DNA of 36,962 nt from a virus: the IMG/VR virus record IMGVR_UViG_3300004097_000020, positions 1 through 36,962 of that record; one strand, 5' to 3'. A program made the position numbers and the translations under genes. Below are positions 3,833 through 35,763 of the stretch, piece after piece (the first letter of the stretch is position 1; each line of letters starts with the position of its first letter). The notes below the pieces were generated by a model. The model was not told the DNA's origin. It searched no databases and saw only the letters and a list, made by a program, of their open reading frames with translations.

Positions 3833-4101
3833 TCGGCGATATTTATCTAACATTAAACAAATGCGACACATTTGTTTTAGGAAGTGGTTTAAAAAAATAT
3901 AAAATTTCCACAATCGGCCTGATGAGGGATCATGGGGTGTTTCGCAGTCGAATAAGACCTTTAATATTCGAGACAATGGTCTTCAGTGACGACAAAGACT
4001 GGGACTTATACCAAGAAATATACACTTCACTAGAAAAAGCAAAAAAAGGACATGATGAAATTATTTTAAAAATATTGCAAGAGGTAAAAAATGATAAATA
4101 A
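3829..4101 (+). CDS. Hypothetical protein (90 aa) opening with GDIYLTLN
   Basis: Not recognised. The protein begins MIGDIYLTLN, the same strand seen near the C-terminus of the product at 1306, then has a central beta-like part and a lysine/glutamate-rich helical C-terminus (EKAKKGHDEIILKILQEVKND). It is coupled to the primase-helicase by an ATGA overlap, with GGAGGT eight or so bases upstream, and it overlaps the start of the DUF4116 gene by 11 bases. The 15 bases around its start (3817-3831) recur exactly at the start of the gene at 5199, which may reflect cassette-like gain of these small genes. Confidence 0.55.
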   Translation: MIGDIYLTLNKCDTFVLGSGLKKYKISTIGLMRDHGVFRSRIRPLIFETMVFSDDKDWDLYQEIYTSLEKAKKGHDEIILKILQEVKNDK

Positions 4102-5212
4102 AAATAGTACAAAAAAGGAAGTGTTAGTAGCTGTAAAAGCAGAGGGGTATAATTTGTGTTATGCAAGTGAGGAATTGCGGAAGGATCGTGAGGTGGTGAT
4201 GGAGGCGGTGAAGCAGGATGGGTATGCTTTGCGGCACGCCAGTGAGGAATTGAGGCGTGATCGTGAGGTGGTGCTGGAAGCTGGGAAAGAGACTGGGGAT
4301 GCTTTTCGGTATGCAAGTAAGGAATTACGTGGTGATCGCGAGGTTGTTATGGAAGCGGTGAAGCAGAAGGGGTATGCTTTGCAGCACGCCAGTGAGAAAT
4401 TGAGGCGTGATCGTGAGGTGGTAATGGAAGCGGTGAATCAGTATGGGTATCTGTTGCGGTTTGCTAGTAAGGAATTGCGGAAGGATCGTGAGGTGGTTCT
4501 GACAGCTGTGCAGCAGGAGGGCTGGGCGTTGGAGTATGCAAGTAAGGAATTACGTGGTGATCGTGATGTGGTGCTGGAAGCGGTGCATCAGAGTGGGCAG
4601 GCTTTGGATTATGCGAGTGCGGAATTGAGGCGTGATCGTGAGGTGGTTCTGACAGCGGTGAAGAAGAATGGGAATGCGTTGCAGTATGCGAGTGAGGCAT
4701 TGAAGGGTGATCGTGAGGTGGTTCTGACAGCGGTGAGAAAAGATGCCAGGGCGTTGCAGTATGTGAGTGCGGAATTGCGGAAGGATCGCGATGTGGTAAT
4801 GGAAGCGTTTAAGCAGAATGGGCATGCGTTGCAGCATGCGAATGAGGAATTGAAGGGTGATCGTGATGCGGTAATGGAAGCGGTGAAACAGAAGGGGCTT
4901 GCGTTGCGGTTTGCCAGTGATGAATTGAGGCGTGATCGTGAGGTGGTGTTGGAAGCCGTGAAGCGGAATGGGTATGCGCTGGAGTTTGCTAGTGATGAAT
5001 TGCGTAATGAGCGTGAGGTGGTACTGGTAGCGGTGAATAACGATTGGCATGCTTTAAAGTATGCTAGTGAGGCATTACAGGCTGATCATGAGGTGGTACT
5101 GGTAGCGATAAAGAAAAACGGCTGGGCGTTCGAGTATGTTAATGAGAAGTTGCTATTTGAAATGGGGCAGTACTGGCTTGCTTGTATGGAGGTAAAAAAT
5201 GGGATTAGTTAA
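4091..5212 (+). CDS. DUF4116 tandem-repeat protein (373 aa, about 14 units)
   Basis: The protein is almost entirely a 25-residue repeat with consensus DREVVLEAVKQNGYALxYAS followed by (E/K)ELR(K/G/R). The first unit is residues 1-31 and thirteen more follow from residue 32. This pattern is the DUF4116 repeat, known from bacterial and large-virus proteins of unknown function; a stacked helical solenoid used for protein binding is likely, but this is inference. No signal peptide, membrane segment or enzymatic motif is visible. The start is ATG at 4091 after GAGGT, overlapping the upstream gene by 11 bases; the following gene overlaps its end by 14 bases. The coding strand is strikingly G-rich and C-poor compared with neighbours. 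A short paralogue with the same N-terminus lies at 35764. Confidence 0.85.
   Translation: MINKNSTKKEVLVAVKAEGYNLCYASEELRKDREVVMEAVKQDGYALRHASEELRRDREVVLEAGKETGDAFRYASKELRGDREVVMEAVKQKGYALQHASEKLRRDREVVMEAVNQYGYLLRFASKELRKDREVVLTAVQQEGWALEYASKELRGDRDVVLEAVHQSGQALDYASAELRRDREVVLTAVKKNGNALQYASEALKGDREVVLTAVRKDARALQYVSAELRKDRDVVMEAFKQNGHALQHANEELKGDRDAVMEAVKQKGLALRFASDELRRDREVVLEAVKRNGYALEFASDELRNEREVVLVAVNNDWHALKYASEALQADHEVVLVAIKKNGWAFEYVNEKLLFEMGQYWLACMEVKNGIS
4184..5158 (+). repeat. 75-bp tandem repeat array inside the DUF4116 gene
   Basis: Thirteen consecutive 75-base units, each starting at a codon for D/E in (D/E)(R/H)(E/D), encode the 25-residue protein repeats. Units are diverged, but many share GATCGTGAGGTGGT. 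Units starting near 4184 and 4334 are closer to each other than to the unit between them, which indicates duplication in blocks of about 150 bases as well as single units. The array keeps the reading frame throughout, so gain or loss of units would preserve the protein. Confidence 0.85.
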
Positions 5213-9245: not shown

Positions 9246-11171
9246 ATGCTATATATCGACTTCGAAACAAGGTCTTATTGCGACCTAACAGCCAGTGGTT
9301 CGTGGCGATACGCACAAGACCCAACAACGGAAATCTTGTGCATGGCCTACGCCTTCTCAGATACTGAGCCTAAAATAGTAATAGGCTCAGAGCTGCCAGA
9401 TATAGTGGCCTTGCATATTGATATGGGCGGGATCGTTGAGGCGCACAATGCTATGTTTGAGCGAGCACTTTGGGAGTCTATAGGCGTAAAGAAATATGGA
9501 TGGCCAGAGATAAAACCAGAACAATGGAGATGCTCCGCAGCCTTGTGCGCCCGATGGGGCGTACCTAGAGATTTAAAAACGGCGCCAGGTGCGTTAGGCT
9601 TAGACCAAAGCAAAGACGCTGAGGGCCGCGCGATCATGTTGCAATTGTGTAAGCCCAGAAAAACAAAAGACGGGTTAGCGTACGTCGAAGATGCCAATAA
9701 GTTTGAGCGCCTGTATGAATATTGCCTACAGGATGTACAAACAGAGAAGGCCATTAGTAAATGTTTTCAGCAGGATTTTGCGTTTGAGCAACAAGTGTGG
9801 GCACTGGACCAAAGAATTAACTACAGAGGAGTACCCATCGACCGAACCGCAGTAGAGAATGCGTTAGAGCTTTTAGCGCTATACACGGACGAGCTCGATA
9901 AGGAAGCTAGAAAAATAACCGGTGGGTTAGCTATCAGCCAACGCGACAAGATACTAGCATGGGCGAGCGACAAGGGCGTGAGTTTACCTTCTCTCACTAA
10001 AGAAGCAGTAGCTGATTGCTTAACTTGGGTGCAAGACAAAGAGGTAAAAAGGATTCTTGAGATTCGGGCGCAGTACAAAACTTCTACGGCTAAGTACGAG
10101 CGGTTACAATCTAGCATGTCAGAAGGTGACCGTATCCGGGACGCCTTTGTTTACTACGGAGCCCTAACCGGTAGGTGGTCCGGGCGCTTGGCTCAATTCC
10201 AAAATCTACCTAAAGGCTCAGTGGGGGCTAAAGATATAGACGCTGTTGTGGATTCTGTTGTAAAAAAAGATGTTGACGCTATAAACGCCCATAAGACACC
10301 CCCGATGGAGCAATTATCTAGTTGCCTTAGGGGTATGGTAGCCGCCGGCCCCAAGACGTCCCTGTATGTGGCGGATTTTGCCGCTATTGAAGCCAGGGCC
10401 ATAGCTTGGTTAGCAAATTGCGATTTAGCGTTAAATCAGTTTAAAAAAGGAGAAGACTTATATGTTACAATGGCCGCCAAGATATATAAAATTAATGCGG
10501 GGGAAGTTACCAAAGACCAACGCCAGCTGGGTAAAGCGGCTGTGTTGGGTGCTGGTTATGGGATGGGGCATAAAACATTCTATAAGACTTGCGCGTCGTG
10601 GGGGATGCAGGTATCAGAACAATTAGCAAAGTCGGCAATCACTACGTACCGTTCGGTGTATTGCGAGATAAGAGACTTGTGGCGCTACACCGAGTTAGCC
10701 GCTACTAACGCTATTAGGTATGGATTGCCAGTTAACGCCGGGCTTGTAACTTGGTTCACCCACAACGGCAATCTACATTGTAAGCTACCGAGTGGTAGGA
10801 GCTTGACGTACCGCAACGCAAAGCTACGGGCAGTAGAGACGTTGTGGGGCGGGGAAGGTTACGAGATTACTTATATGGGCTCGAAAGAGAAGGGGGCTAA
10901 GTGGGTGCCTATATCCACCTACGGGGGTAAGTTGGTAGAAAACATAACGCAAGCGATTGCGCGCGATTTATTAGCTGAGTCGATGTTGCGGTTAGAGGCT
11001 GCCGGGTACGATATAGTCATGCACATACACGACGAGGTGGTGTGTGAGGTGCCCGACAATGCTAATAAATCCTTGGGGGAGTATGAGCTAATTATGTCGC
11101 AAATACCGGCGTGGGCCGAAGGTATGCCGATATCAGTAGAGGGTTGGGTCGGGAAGAGATTTAAAAAATAG
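9246..11171 (+). CDS. Family A DNA polymerase with 3'-5' exonuclease domain (641 aa)
   Basis: This is the replicative polymerase. The N-terminal exonuclease has LYIDFETRS (D5, E7) and AHNAMFERALWE. The polymerase palm shows motif A VADFAAIEARAIAW (D377), motif B RQLGKAAVLGAGYGMG, and motif C HIHDEVVCEV (H595, D596). There is no N-terminal 5'-nuclease domain, as usual in phage enzymes of about 650 residues. ATG 9246 has no good Shine-Dalgarno, so expression may depend on the gene ending four bases earlier. The last 35 or so bases, including the stop, are duplicated at 11658-11693 behind the next gene. Confidence 0.93.
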   Translation: MLYIDFETRSYCDLTASGSWRYAQDPTTEILCMAYAFSDTEPKIVIGSELPDIVALHIDMGGIVEAHNAMFERALWESIGVKKYGWPEIKPEQWRCSAALCARWGVPRDLKTAPGALGLDQSKDAEGRAIMLQLCKPRKTKDGLAYVEDANKFERLYEYCLQDVQTEKAISKCFQQDFAFEQQVWALDQRINYRGVPIDRTAVENALELLALYTDELDKEARKITGGLAISQRDKILAWASDKGVSLPSLTKEAVADCLTWVQDKEVKRILEIRAQYKTSTAKYERLQSSMSEGDRIRDAFVYYGALTGRWSGRLAQFQNLPKGSVGAKDIDAVVDSVVKKDVDAINAHKTPPMEQLSSCLRGMVAAGPKTSLYVADFAAIEARAIAWLANCDLALNQFKKGEDLYVTMAAKIYKINAGEVTKDQRQLGKAAVLGAGYGMGHKTFYKTCASWGMQVSEQLAKSAITTYRSVYCEIRDLWRYTELAATNAIRYGLPVNAGLVTWFTHNGNLHCKLPSGRSLTYRNAKLRAVETLWGGEGYEITYMGSKEKGAKWVPISTYGGKLVENITQAIARDLLAESMLRLEAAGYDIVMHIHDEVVCEVPDNANKSLGEYELIMSQIPAWAEGMPISVEGWVGKRFKK

Positions 11172-11670: not shown

Positions 11671-11693
11671 GAGATTTAAAAAATAGGAGAGTA
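11658..11693 (+). repeat. Direct repeat copy 2 (behind the cassette gene)
   Basis: Second copy of the polymerase 3'-end sequence. The single mismatch to copy 1 creates the TAA at 11668-11670 that ends the gene at 11182. The copied GGAGAGTA also serves as ribosome site for the gene at 11699. Confidence 0.9.
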
Positions 11694-11698
11694 AAGAT

Positions 11699-11911
11699 AT
11701 GGATTTTGAGTATTTTATTTTAGTGGCTTTTATGTTTGTATTTGCATTGCCTTTTAATCTTTCGGTCGTTATGTTTTTTCTTAGGGCTAGAGCTAACGGT
11801 GATTTTGCCAGCTATTTGGTCGTCTTTTGTTATGCTCTTTTTATAGTTGTGTTTGATGTTATCTTAGTTTCTATGCTGGTCGAACACACAAAAACGTACA
11901 TACCGTCCTAA
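11699..11911 (+). CDS. Small two-span membrane protein (70 aa)
   Basis: Two hydrophobic segments, residues about 4-28 (ending VVMFFLRAR) and about 39-62 (YLVVFCYALFIVVFDVILVS), joined by a short positively charged loop, predict a small inner-membrane protein. GGAG eight bases before the ATG is part of the 36-base repeat that bounds the upstream cassette. Function unknown. The gene ends just before a promoter-like element. Confidence 0.55.
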   Translation: MDFEYFILVAFMFVFALPFNLSVVMFFLRARANGDFASYLVVFCYALFIVVFDVILVSMLVEHTKTYIPS

Positions 11912-11915
11912 ACGC

Positions 11916-11944
11916 TTTAAAAAATAGACAAGGTGTGTTATACT
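11916..11944 (+). promoter_or_regulatory. Extended -10 promoter for a structured RNA/leader
   Basis: TGTTATACT (11936-11944) is an extended -10 element (TGn plus TATACT). Seventeen bases upstream is TTTAAA (11916-11921), 4 of 6 matches to the -35 consensus. The predicted start point near 11951 falls at the 5' strand of the long stem described in the next entry. Confidence 0.5.
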
Positions 11945-11947
11945 ACT

Positions 11948-12091
11948 AGTATGTGTTCGGGCTTTATTCGTGGCCTTATCAACATCTGTTAAGCGCCGTC
12001 GCTTTATAGAAACCTGCCGAATACATACTTGCGGCCCAATACCAGGAATTACTTTTACTAAACCTTTACTCCTTTGATTGGGCCTTTAATA
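11948..12091 (+). ncRNA. Candidate structured small RNA or structured leader of the resolvase gene
   Basis: No protein is encoded in this gap. The plus-strand transcript can fold into three stems: P1, 13 pairs with one G-U (11948-11960 with 12017-12029); P2 inside it (11986-11995 with 12000-12009, loop CCGU, one U-U mismatch and one G-U); and P3, GGCCCAAT with ATTGGGCC (12033-12040 with 12077-12084), followed by a T-rich run. A promoter lies exactly at the 5' edge. The arrangement promoter, compact fold, terminator-like hairpin suggests a small RNA of about 140 nt. Alternatively it is a 5' leader controlling the RuvC-like gene that begins at 12096. I do not recognise the fold as a known RNA class. 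Confidence 0.42.
12033..12091 (+). terminator. Terminator- or attenuator-like hairpin before the resolvase gene
   Basis: An 8-bp perfect stem (12033-12040 with 12077-12084), with a possible inner AGGA/TCCT pairing, is followed by TTTAATAAAA. The loop is long (36 bases) and the T-run is interrupted, so termination would be weak or partial; attenuation is possible. It ends 11 bases before the next ATG. Confidence 0.35.
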
Positions 12092-12095
12092 AAAC

Positions 12096-12587
12096 ATGAT
12101 AAATAAACAATCAGTTATAGCATTAGATTTAGGGACAACCTGCGGGTGGGCGCTTAAGCACAACAATCGGACGTATTCGGGTGTATTTAAATTAGCCCCT
12201 ACGCGGTTTGATTCGTATGATCAGCGCTTCATAACGTTTCGTAAAAACCTACAGGAGCTTTTAGCTAAGCGTTTCAAAGACGTGGATTTAAATACGGTTC
12301 AAGTTTTTTATGAAGAGGTCCGCCAATCGCAAGCCCCGGACGCGGCCCACATGTACGGCGGATATAAAACAGTGCTTACTAGCTTTTGCCTTGACCGTAA
12401 GCTGTCCTATAAGGGCGTGGGGGTTACTACAATTAAAAAATTTATAACAGGCACGGGAAGCGCGGGCAAGGATAAAGTCATTGCAAGTGTTCGCAAGCTC
12501 GGCCATTATCCCGAAGATGATAACGAAGCCGACGCACTAGCGCTATTATATTATGGGCTCGCTTACCTACCCGAAAACGTGGTATAA
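12096..12587 (+). CDS. RuvC-like Holliday junction resolvase (163 aa)
   Basis: The fold is RNase H/RuvC-like: first strand VIALDLGTTCGWA with catalytic D11, the second acidic site in VFYEEV (E73/E74), and the C-terminal DNEADALALLYYG with D146. This is the four-acid pattern of RuvC-type resolvases. In phages they cut branched DNA before packaging, which fits the recombination genes upstream. No Shine-Dalgarno precedes ATG 12096, but D11 in the first strand excludes a much later start. TTTAAT lies five bases before the ATG, so a leaderless mRNA or control by the preceding RNA structure is possible. The N-terminus MINKQS shares its codons with the starts at 688 and 4091. Confidence 0.85.
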   Translation: MINKQSVIALDLGTTCGWALKHNNRTYSGVFKLAPTRFDSYDQRFITFRKNLQELLAKRFKDVDLNTVQVFYEEVRQSQAPDAAHMYGGYKTVLTSFCLDRKLSYKGVGVTTIKKFITGTGSAGKDKVIASVRKLGHYPEDDNEADALALLYYGLAYLPENVV

Positions 12588-17122: not shown

Positions 17123-19315
17123 CTAGCTAAAATAAAAGGGTTGCATGGTTGACCTGCTTCGATTAGCTCCCTCTCGATAAGTTGGCAACTGGTAAGCACC
17201 CCCATAGCCCGATTGATAATACACCCCTTCTTCAGTTAACACCCCTAAAGATGCTTCTGAGCCTCGGCCTATCGAACACAGTTTAACAGGTTTGTGCTTC
17301 ATAAAGCCAAGAACTGGCTGCAAGCTGGTATTGATTGCATTATTGGTGCCAATACCATAGTTTCCGTAAAGATTATAGCCACACGCTTGAATGTAGCCAT
17401 CGTCATACAAGATCACCGTAGAGGTGACACTACCTGACCCTAAAGCTTTTAACTGTGTGATAGTACGGCCAGATCGCAAACTATTCGGAATTGTTTGGTG
17501 AGTTGTTTTTTGCGTAGTCGTCCCATCCCCTAATTGACCGTACCCATTATACCCACTAGCAACGATGCTGTGATCGTCTTTAATGACGTACGAAATTTCA
17601 TAGACTCCATAAGCCATCAATATGTCTTGATTATCTGTTCCTAACCCACTTAGATGCTGCGGAGTAGTGTATTGAGTAGTGTTCCCCGTTCCTAACCCCC
17701 CACTTCCGTTATACCCCCAAGTATAAACAGCACCGGTTGATAATAAACACATGGACGTTCCGTATTCAGCAGTTAAACCAATGCTCCATCCATGTGCCCC
17801 CGAAAACTTAGAAACCGCCACACCCCCAAACGCATTGACTAATTGAGGCGTTGATTGACTTGTTGTACTTCCAATTCCTAACTGGCCACGGGCATTATAG
17901 CCCCACGTATATAAATTTCCTGACGTATCAATTCCGGCTGAAAACCCCCCAGATACCCCCATGGCGTAAATCTTAACCCAATCGCTTTTTGACAACAACT
18001 GCGGGGTGGATTGATTGGTAGTATTTCCTATGCCGAGCTGACCTGACCCGTTAAACCCACAAGCATACAAACTGCCGTCGTCGGCTAAAAATAAGGTGTG
18101 GTACCTACCAATATTATAATACGCCTTAGACAACTGAATATCAACTATATTTACGCCATTTAAAGCAGCCACTTTTGTTGGCACTAAAACGTTGGATGTA
18201 TTGCCCACGCCTAGCTCGCCATAAGCATTGCGCCCCCACACCCATACCTCGCCATTATCCATAAGCACGATATTGTCCGCGCCCTGGCGTTCCCATTTAA
18301 TCGGCGTTCCGGTTGTGTTTGCTGGAAACGCTGGCTGAATCATAAATGTAGAATCGTGAAGCTGAGTGCCTGCGCCAAGCGAACCATAAGTTCCCTGACC
18401 CCAGCATCGCAATGTTCCATCATCTAAAAGAACACCGCCAGATCGGTACCCACCATCATGAGCTGCACCATCGGTATTTGGCAGGTCAATCACTCGCCGT
18501 TGTGGGTTTTGCTCCCAACCAACCACTGAGCTTGCTCCAACGCCCAGCATGTCGTATTGATTACCAACCGGTAATCGAGTTGCCGAGGATCCGTTGTTGT
18601 ATAATAAATCCCCCTTAGCGCTTAATGCGGCGGTAGATAGTGCGCCTAACGTGAGTAACGCCGTTGCAGCGTCCGCATCGTCTAAAAGCGTTTTTGCAAA
18701 CGCACTAACCCCCAACGTAGTTAAAGCTGTAGCAGCATCGGCATCGTCAATAAGTGCTTGCCCAAATTCTGATACTGCGTAATCGCCTATCGAAGCTCCG
18801 GGGCCAGCCTCTGGCACCCCCGTTTCATTATTGAAAAACATGTATTTGCCTTTTCGCGCATCAAGCGAAGGTAGCTCAATCGGGGAGGCCCCCGTATCAG
18901 ATGGCGACTGGCGAATTGTCCGCTCGCCATCTCTTTGAACTTGCTGTATAAGCGCAATAATTTTATTGAATTCCAAATTCATAGCAGCCGCTCGGAATCC
19001 CCCCGACGTTGCAAAACCAGTGGTTCGCTCCGCCGGTATATCTCGATACAACGTGACGTTGTCGTTTAACGCTAAGCCGGAGTTAAATACTACTTTACCC
19101 CCAGATAACCCATCCGCCAAGTCCGTCCCTGTTACGGCAGCCCCGTTAGACTTTTTAAGTTGGTAGTCCGTAACCTCTATTTTTAAAACATCATTTAAAA
19201 ACACTTGAATATCGGACGTTTCATAAATTACATAAGTAAATACAAAGTCTGTTTGACTTGCGGTTGCTATATATTGGTGGATCGGTGTGATATCGTTTAC
19301 GGGTACATTAGCCAT
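17123..19315 (-). CDS. T7-type tail fibre with C-terminal RCC1 beta-propeller (730 aa)
   Basis: Residues 1-140 match the T7 tail-fibre N-terminal domain that docks to the tail: DFVFTYVIYETSDIQVFLND, then VTLYRDIPAERTTGF and FRAAAMNLEFNKI. A linker with two copies of DDADAATAL.TLG follows. From about residue 295 to 665 there are seven RCC1-type blades, each with a core such as WGRNAYGELGVGN, YTWGYNARGQLGIG or ASGYNGYGQLGDG, a complete seven-bladed propeller by count. The propeller replaces the pyramid or tip domains of T7 and is probably the receptor-binding head. AGGAG precedes the ATG. It is followed by a candidate assembly chaperone. Confidence 0.88.
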   Translation of the reverse strand: MANVPVNDITPIHQYIATASQTDFVFTYVIYETSDIQVFLNDVLKIEVTDYQLKKSNGAAVTGTDLADGLSGGKVVFNSGLALNDNVTLYRDIPAERTTGFATSGGFRAAAMNLEFNKIIALIQQVQRDGERTIRQSPSDTGASPIELPSLDARKGKYMFFNNETGVPEAGPGASIGDYAVSEFGQALIDDADAATALTTLGVSAFAKTLLDDADAATALLTLGALSTAALSAKGDLLYNNGSSATRLPVGNQYDMLGVGASSVVGWEQNPQRRVIDLPNTDGAAHDGGYRSGGVLLDDGTLRCWGQGTYGSLGAGTQLHDSTFMIQPAFPANTTGTPIKWERQGADNIVLMDNGEVWVWGRNAYGELGVGNTSNVLVPTKVAALNGVNIVDIQLSKAYYNIGRYHTLFLADDGSLYACGFNGSGQLGIGNTTNQSTPQLLSKSDWVKIYAMGVSGGFSAGIDTSGNLYTWGYNARGQLGIGSTTSQSTPQLVNAFGGVAVSKFSGAHGWSIGLTAEYGTSMCLLSTGAVYTWGYNGSGGLGTGNTTQYTTPQHLSGLGTDNQDILMAYGVYEISYVIKDDHSIVASGYNGYGQLGDGTTTQKTTHQTIPNSLRSGRTITQLKALGSGSVTSTVILYDDGYIQACGYNLYGNYGIGTNNAINTSLQPVLGFMKHKPVKLCSIGRGSEASLGVLTEEGVYYQSGYGGAYQLPTYREGANRSRSTMQPFYFS

Positions 19316-35282: not shown

Positions 35283-35316
35283 TACCCAGCAAAAAACAAA
35301 GCTACTACACATAATA

Positions 35317-35366
35317 AGTAGTATAATATATATAATATATAAATATATAATATATATTATACTACT
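35317..35366. repeat. Perfect 17-bp inverted repeat with AT-only core
   Basis: Arms AGTAGTATAATATATAT (35317-35333) and its exact complement (35350-35366) flank 16 bases that contain only A and T. DNA could extrude as a cruciform, or RNA could fold as a long hairpin. Confidence 0.85.
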
Positions 35367-35689
35367 GGTATACGTTACTGTAAGTTTTTGAAAGTGTTTT
35401 TAGTAGTTAGTTTATGTTGGTTTTACAATGGTTTTAGTATTTAGGGGTTTTAGGCCTTTTTTGGCATACAGCACGGTTTACGCTCAAACGTGTACATCAA
35501 GAATTTTAAATATATATTTAACGTATTGGAAATATATATAAGGTTACGCCTAGCTTTATATATATTTTTTAAAAAAGAAAGTATGCTTTTAGGTGTAAAA
35601 CGATATATATATATATATGTAGGGCTTATATATCCATAATACTTGTAATACACCTTTGAGCGTAAAACGATACATCATGAAATTTCGAT

Positions 35690-35718
35690 TAGACAAACTG
35701 ATTGGTGGTTGGTATGCT
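35690..35718 (+). promoter_or_regulatory. Sigma-70 promoter for the small early operon
   Basis: TAGACA (35690-35695, 5 of 6) and TATGCT (35713-35718, 4 of 6) are separated by 17 bases, and TGG precedes the -10. The start point near 35725 leaves a leader of about 40 bases with GGAG before ATG 35764. Confidence 0.5.
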
Positions 35719-35763
35719 TGGTTTTGTTGAGAGTTTTAGCGGTTTTAAAAGGAGTTAGAGAAA

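Follow-up and report, generated by a model that had tools for sequence, protein, structure and literature searches.

The window analysed here, the 36,962-base viral record IMGVR_UViG_3300004097_000020 (positions 1 to 36,962), carries a podovirus-type genome, as shown by PHROG matches. By these matches, the plus strand encodes a primase/helicase, a helicase, an exonuclease, a gp2.5-like SSB and a PolA-type polymerase (polA, 9246-11171), and the minus strand contains the genes for head, tail and internal virion proteins. Family searches detected no RNA polymerase gene among the window proteins searched. The capsid protein has its nearest named relatives in Dunaliella viridis virus SI2 (40.6%) and in Vibrio and Pelagibacter phages. 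Close to the end of the plus-strand gene block, a structured noncoding stretch leads into a resolvase gene (12096-12587, plus strand). The GC skew reaches its maximum at this leader locus and its minimum near 34.5 kb. Approximately 1 kb from the minimum, an AT-rich noncoding region (35283-35763) contains a long AT palindrome (near 35317-35366) and TATATA runs and may serve as an origin of replication or as an early control region. Elsewhere, a gene of ∼12.6 tandem 75-bp units within the replication gene block (4091-5212) encodes DUF4116 repeats (Pfam E 3.5e-228, 12 stretches), and a tail-fibre-like protein on the minus strand (17123-19315) matches regulator-of-chromosome-condensation (RCC1-type) repeats (PHROG 4219).

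The product of 12096-12587 is a predicted RuvC-like Holliday junction resolvase of 163 amino acids. It matches the RuvC-like family profiles of PHROG 159 (E 6e-18) and Pfam PF02075 (23.3 bits, cutoff 22.2) and the structure of PDB 1hjr (E 0.004), and RuvC is its sole Pfam match up to E 0.1. The acidic residues D11, E73/E74, D141/D142 and D146 are invariant in eight resolvase sequences and occupy the usual RuvC-like places.

The leader upstream of the resolvase gene (11947-12095) is predicted to fold with a minimum free energy of -45.6 kcal/mol (z = -5.8), and none of 200 shuffled sequences is equally stable. In a scan of both strands with 140-nt segments (1,056 window/strand positions), this stretch has the lowest z of all positions, with -5.8 on the plus strand versus -3.6 on the minus strand. 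Another very stable predicted fold (z -4.8) is located at 2451-2590 on the plus strand, within the primase/helicase coding sequence. Every element that the first-pass annotation had named in the leader is present. Its 13-pair stem corresponds to P1, a 5'-terminal hairpin (11948-12029) in which the arms 11948-11960 and 12017-12029 form 12-13 base pairs. P1 encloses a small hairpin (11960-11975) and an inner stem (11985-12010) of 5+5 base pairs, with a U-U mismatch between the two halves and a CCGU cap. The inner stem was also described earlier and is found in the window, but the relatives have a shorter, different inner loop, UCU[A/G]UGCCUUGAU[A/G]AAAUA. P1 is followed by P2 (12033-12084), an 8-bp stem of GGCCCAAU (12033-12040) and AUUGGGCC (12077-12084) that closes a 36-nt AU-rich loop. 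P2 matches the 8-bp hairpin noted previously, but the T-rich tail ascribed to it is only TTTAATAA, with four T in eight bases. An 11-nt spacer (12085-12095) connects P2 to the AUG codon.

A consensus scan places a candidate promoter directly before P1 (11916-11944, plus strand). It consists of TTTAAA (11916-11921), a 17-bp spacer and the extended -10 element TGT-TATACT (11936-11944) that had already been recognized in the first pass, and the predicted +1 lies near 11951, 7 nt past the -10. The promoter scan alone performs at chance level (5 found versus 3.9 expected), and the call is strengthened only by the preservation of the -10 region across all aligned relatives, as TATACT, TATAAT or TACACT. 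The promoter segment also contains TTTAAAAAATAG, a copy of the 3' end of polA, and the AT-rich box upstream of the -10 is partly explained as this polA end. For promoters of the one kind scanned, the only candidates in the leader are located at or before the base of P1, where transcription presumably starts. The exact register proposed between promoter and stem holds to within about 3 nt, as the outer two to three P1 pairs lie just upstream of the expected start at ∼11951.

A resolvase search gave 17 IMG/VR contigs, and with the window this makes 18 viral records in which the RNA precedes the same resolvase. One contig (L002) is near-identical to the window, and the others encode resolvases with 79-88% identity. 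The 18 records represent nine distinct RNA sequences, all of which can be aligned over the whole stretch between the -10 region and the resolvase AUG and yield fold z-scores of -3.8 to -6.5. The conserved plan consists of the two helices P1 and P2, and the three-stem plan is confined to the window and the near-identical contig. With a covariance model, each record yields a single match to the RNA on the expected strand, invariably just in front of the resolvase gene. Weaker minus-strand matches of the model at the same place were rejected as reverse-complement shadows of inverted repeats.

The gene upstream of the RNA varies. In L187, the contig that carries the L015 sequence, the polA stop codon is positioned 20 nt upstream of the RNA. 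The other contigs contain one to four accessory genes in between, which differ among relatives and are often accompanied by polA-tail copies of TTTAAAAAATAG. In the window, three exact copies (11160-11171, at the polA end, 11675-11686 and 11916-11927) flank the accessory genes before the RNA. These repeats suggest that the 3' end of polA is a recombination hot spot for gene gain. Because the upstream neighbors are remodeled while the RNA-resolvase order is fixed, the RNA and the resolvase gene appear to travel as a unit.

Wider searches restrict the RNA, as far as they reach, to one clade of uncultured podovirus-like phages. The covariance model does not detect it before the homologous resolvases of L036 and L037 (44% and 41% identity), and model R1 does not find it in distant polA relatives (28-38% identity). 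A P2 hairpin pattern run against 2.9 million viral contigs returned, beyond the known contigs, only sequences that proved unrelated on inspection. The P1 inner-loop motif recovered 16 known contigs as well as five others, amounting to four unrelated sequences, that lack the helices. A DNA search of named phages gave a single match, judged to be due to chance, and one scan of a genome collection yielded a single distant resolvase. In agreement with the earlier remark that no named RNA has this plan, Rfam 15 shows no match at gathering scores across the whole window and none up to E 10 for 11850-12150.

Comparison of the nine sequences supports the predicted helices. In the 12-pair core of P1, every one of the 108 cells holds a standard pair, Watson-Crick in 91 cases and G-U in 17, and none is broken. 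Six of the 12 pairs vary, and three of these have changed on both sides. Every one-sided change produces a G-U pair on the plus strand. Since such changes would be A-C mismatches on the opposite strand, the selected molecule is evidently the plus-strand RNA. When one arm is slid by one to three columns, pairing falls to 27-40%. The chance of keeping all 12 pairs under random transitions is 0.04 for window-L003, 0.09 for window-L015 and 0.08 for L003-L015; these three figures are each modest and mutually non-independent. Independent events are few, since the nine related sequences form three main groups. P2 behaves differently in that its stem, GGCCC[A/G]AU/AUUGGGCC, is almost invariant, with a single A-U to G-U change in L016. 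Between L015 and L016, one of 16 stem positions has changed versus 22 of 35 loop positions, and the loop is free in sequence with its length held at 34-36 nt. Thus, a check of the stems in relatives reveals compensatory changes in P1 but only uncompensated near-invariance in P2, which could also reflect a DNA or protein site. The L015 RNA (L015:4872-4989) is a mosaic in which the P1 arms are identical to those of L016 and the P2 loop resembles that of L003, suggesting recombination between the two helices. Judged from the alignment, P1-P2 is a real conserved structured RNA that is supported by covariation and has no Rfam entry.

The resolvase start region lacks a Shine-Dalgarno sequence. In all nine versions, the anti-SD duplex before the AUG reaches only -2.4 to -3.2 kcal/mol (-2.4 kcal/mol in the window), compared with -4.7 kcal/mol or better for 34 of the 41 other window genes, some of whose start codons are mechanical picks. 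L036 and L037 lack the RNA, and their related resolvase genes are preceded by strong Shine-Dalgarno sequences (-10.6 and -10.8). The usual Shine-Dalgarno place is occupied by the P2 stem. In the window, 11 nt separate the end of P2 from the AUG; the distance is 2 nt in L016/L017 and 12-13 nt in most relatives. The AUG is predicted to lie mostly outside P2 and to be accessible in several relatives: the start region is open in most L003-type relatives, closed in L015 and, around the AUG, partly paired in the window. Because the AUG is mostly outside P2 and often accessible, P2 need not repress; based on these fold predictions, it may either repress or organize initiation. Unstructured RNA is known to permit translation from Shine-Dalgarno-free starts (PMC3121790).

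Most probably, the resolvase mRNA begins with this RNA as a promoter-proximal, structured 5' leader by which translation of the enzyme is limited or timed. The promoter just past the replication genes would drive transcription from the base of P1, and the transcript would fold into the 5'-terminal hairpin P1, which probably protects the RNA 5' end, and then into P2, where a Shine-Dalgarno sequence would otherwise lie, 2-13 nt before the AUG. Acting in cis, the leader would replace normal ribosome recruitment for the resolvase. With a GC stem next to the start site and no Shine-Dalgarno sequence, the ribosome would have to initiate on a short unpaired segment, or initiation would be delayed until P2 is unfolded or occupied by a factor, and resolvase translation would likely be kept low or late. 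Candidate P2 factors are the resolvase itself and the phage SSB, which might bind the 34-36-nt AU-rich P2 loop. As nucleases, resolvases are best made sparingly or late by a phage, and their action has to be delayed, since cutting branched replication intermediates too early would destroy the phage's DNA.

The main rival is a stand-alone small RNA of ∼140 nt, which would have its own promoter, end at P2 and act in trans on host or phage targets while the resolvase is translated from longer transcripts. The promoter adjoining a compact fold, the GC-rich hairpin at the 3' end and the resolvase start without a Shine-Dalgarno sequence are all compatible with this proposal, which the first-pass annotation had raised beside a leader. 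However, no intrinsic terminator is found at its 3' end. The hairpin had been called terminator-like, but a terminator scan does not call P2, whose 34-36-nt loop and weak or absent U-tract depart from an intrinsic terminator. The U-tract is weak in most versions; the longest U run after P2 is three in the window and two in L015 and L016, where CC replaces UU past P2. Without a U-tract in these two relatives, the transcript should run into the resolvase gene. Moreover, the RNA never occurs apart from the resolvase start codon, and against the remainder of the phage genome it shows no more complementarity than shuffled sequences do. The absence of a terminator, the tie to the start codon and the lack of a Shine-Dalgarno sequence favor the regulatory leader, and we consider the small RNA unlikely, though it ranks ahead of the other alternatives. 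The same features of P2 bear on a reading of this hairpin as a terminator or attenuator of transcription, which would curb read-through of polA-operon transcripts into the resolvase gene and the convergent late genes. A GC-rich stem where the plus-strand operon ends would suit such a role, as would the overlap in relatives between the resolvase end and a convergent minus-strand gene, but the long loop, the weak or missing U-tract and the negative scan make it improbable.

Marginally less credible still is that a DNA feature is conserved close to where the replication genes end, be it a cruciform, paired binding sites or a replication origin. The near-invariant sequence of the P2 arms would be expected of a DNA site, but the changes in P1 and P2 give G-U pairs that are valid in plus-strand RNA only (P1: 17 G-U, 0 broken). 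A replication origin is further disfavored, in addition to this strand polarity, by the GC-skew maximum at the leader, which is terminus-like rather than origin-like, although gene orientation confounds the skew. The least plausible alternative concerns a short AUG frame in P1 (MCSGFIRGLINIC, 11951-11992) that might serve as a leaderless upstream ORF controlling the resolvase. In the window as well as in L015 and L016, its AUG coincides with the predicted +1, but L003-type relatives have ACG in its place and the peptide is unconserved. We dropped this candidate because of the missing AUG in the L003 type.

Structured RNAs adjoin or control nuclease genes in several known systems. In IscB-type RuvC nucleases, a structured omega-RNA is encoded alongside a RuvC-fold nuclease, similar to the arrangement of the present RNA and resolvase gene. 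An omega-RNA/IscB-like system was rejected, as the RNA has no Rfam match and shows no sign of a guide, and RuvC, the sole Pfam match of the 163-residue protein, is matched by its models over most of the length, so that the additional IscB domains could not be accommodated. Leader control reportedly regulates expression of a phage Holliday junction resolvase in T4 gene 49 (endonuclease VII; Barth et al. 1988), but the resolvase family, the promoter plan and the RNA all differ from those observed here. In T4-like phages, RNA hairpins control several nuclease genes (I-TevI, segB and mobE) as well as soc, e and 25 (PMC2988022), so hairpin control of phage nuclease genes, as proposed here by analogy, has precedent. 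Both arrangements position an RNA structure directly before a potentially harmful nuclease gene and downstream of early or replication genes. However, the T4-like hairpins sequester a consensus Shine-Dalgarno sequence, and a late promoter generates transcripts without the full hairpin. In the present leader, no paired Shine-Dalgarno sequence is found in any of the nine versions and no internal late promoter among the types scanned. Because it has no Shine-Dalgarno sequence to sequester and its promoter precedes both helices, we do not file the RNA in the T4-type class. A further case is seg43(25) of Aeromonas phage 25 (PMC2988022), whose stable hairpin lies immediately ahead of the start region and likewise leaves the AUG uncovered. 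Below that stem, seg43(25) retains a Shine-Dalgarno sequence, in contrast to the present leader with its two helices and covariation.

A more specific version of the leader model, which we regard as doubtful, is that the resolvase binds its own folded leader, either as stacked P1-P2 or at the three-way junction of the window, and thereby halts its own production. If true, this would be an autoregulation in which a DNA-junction enzyme uses an RNA mimic of its substrate as the operator. More broadly, the leader adds a small, covariation-supported RNA that is absent from Rfam, and its conservation in the Shine-Dalgarno place before a resolvase points to RNA-level timing of junction cutting in podoviruses for which family searches revealed no RNA polymerase gene.
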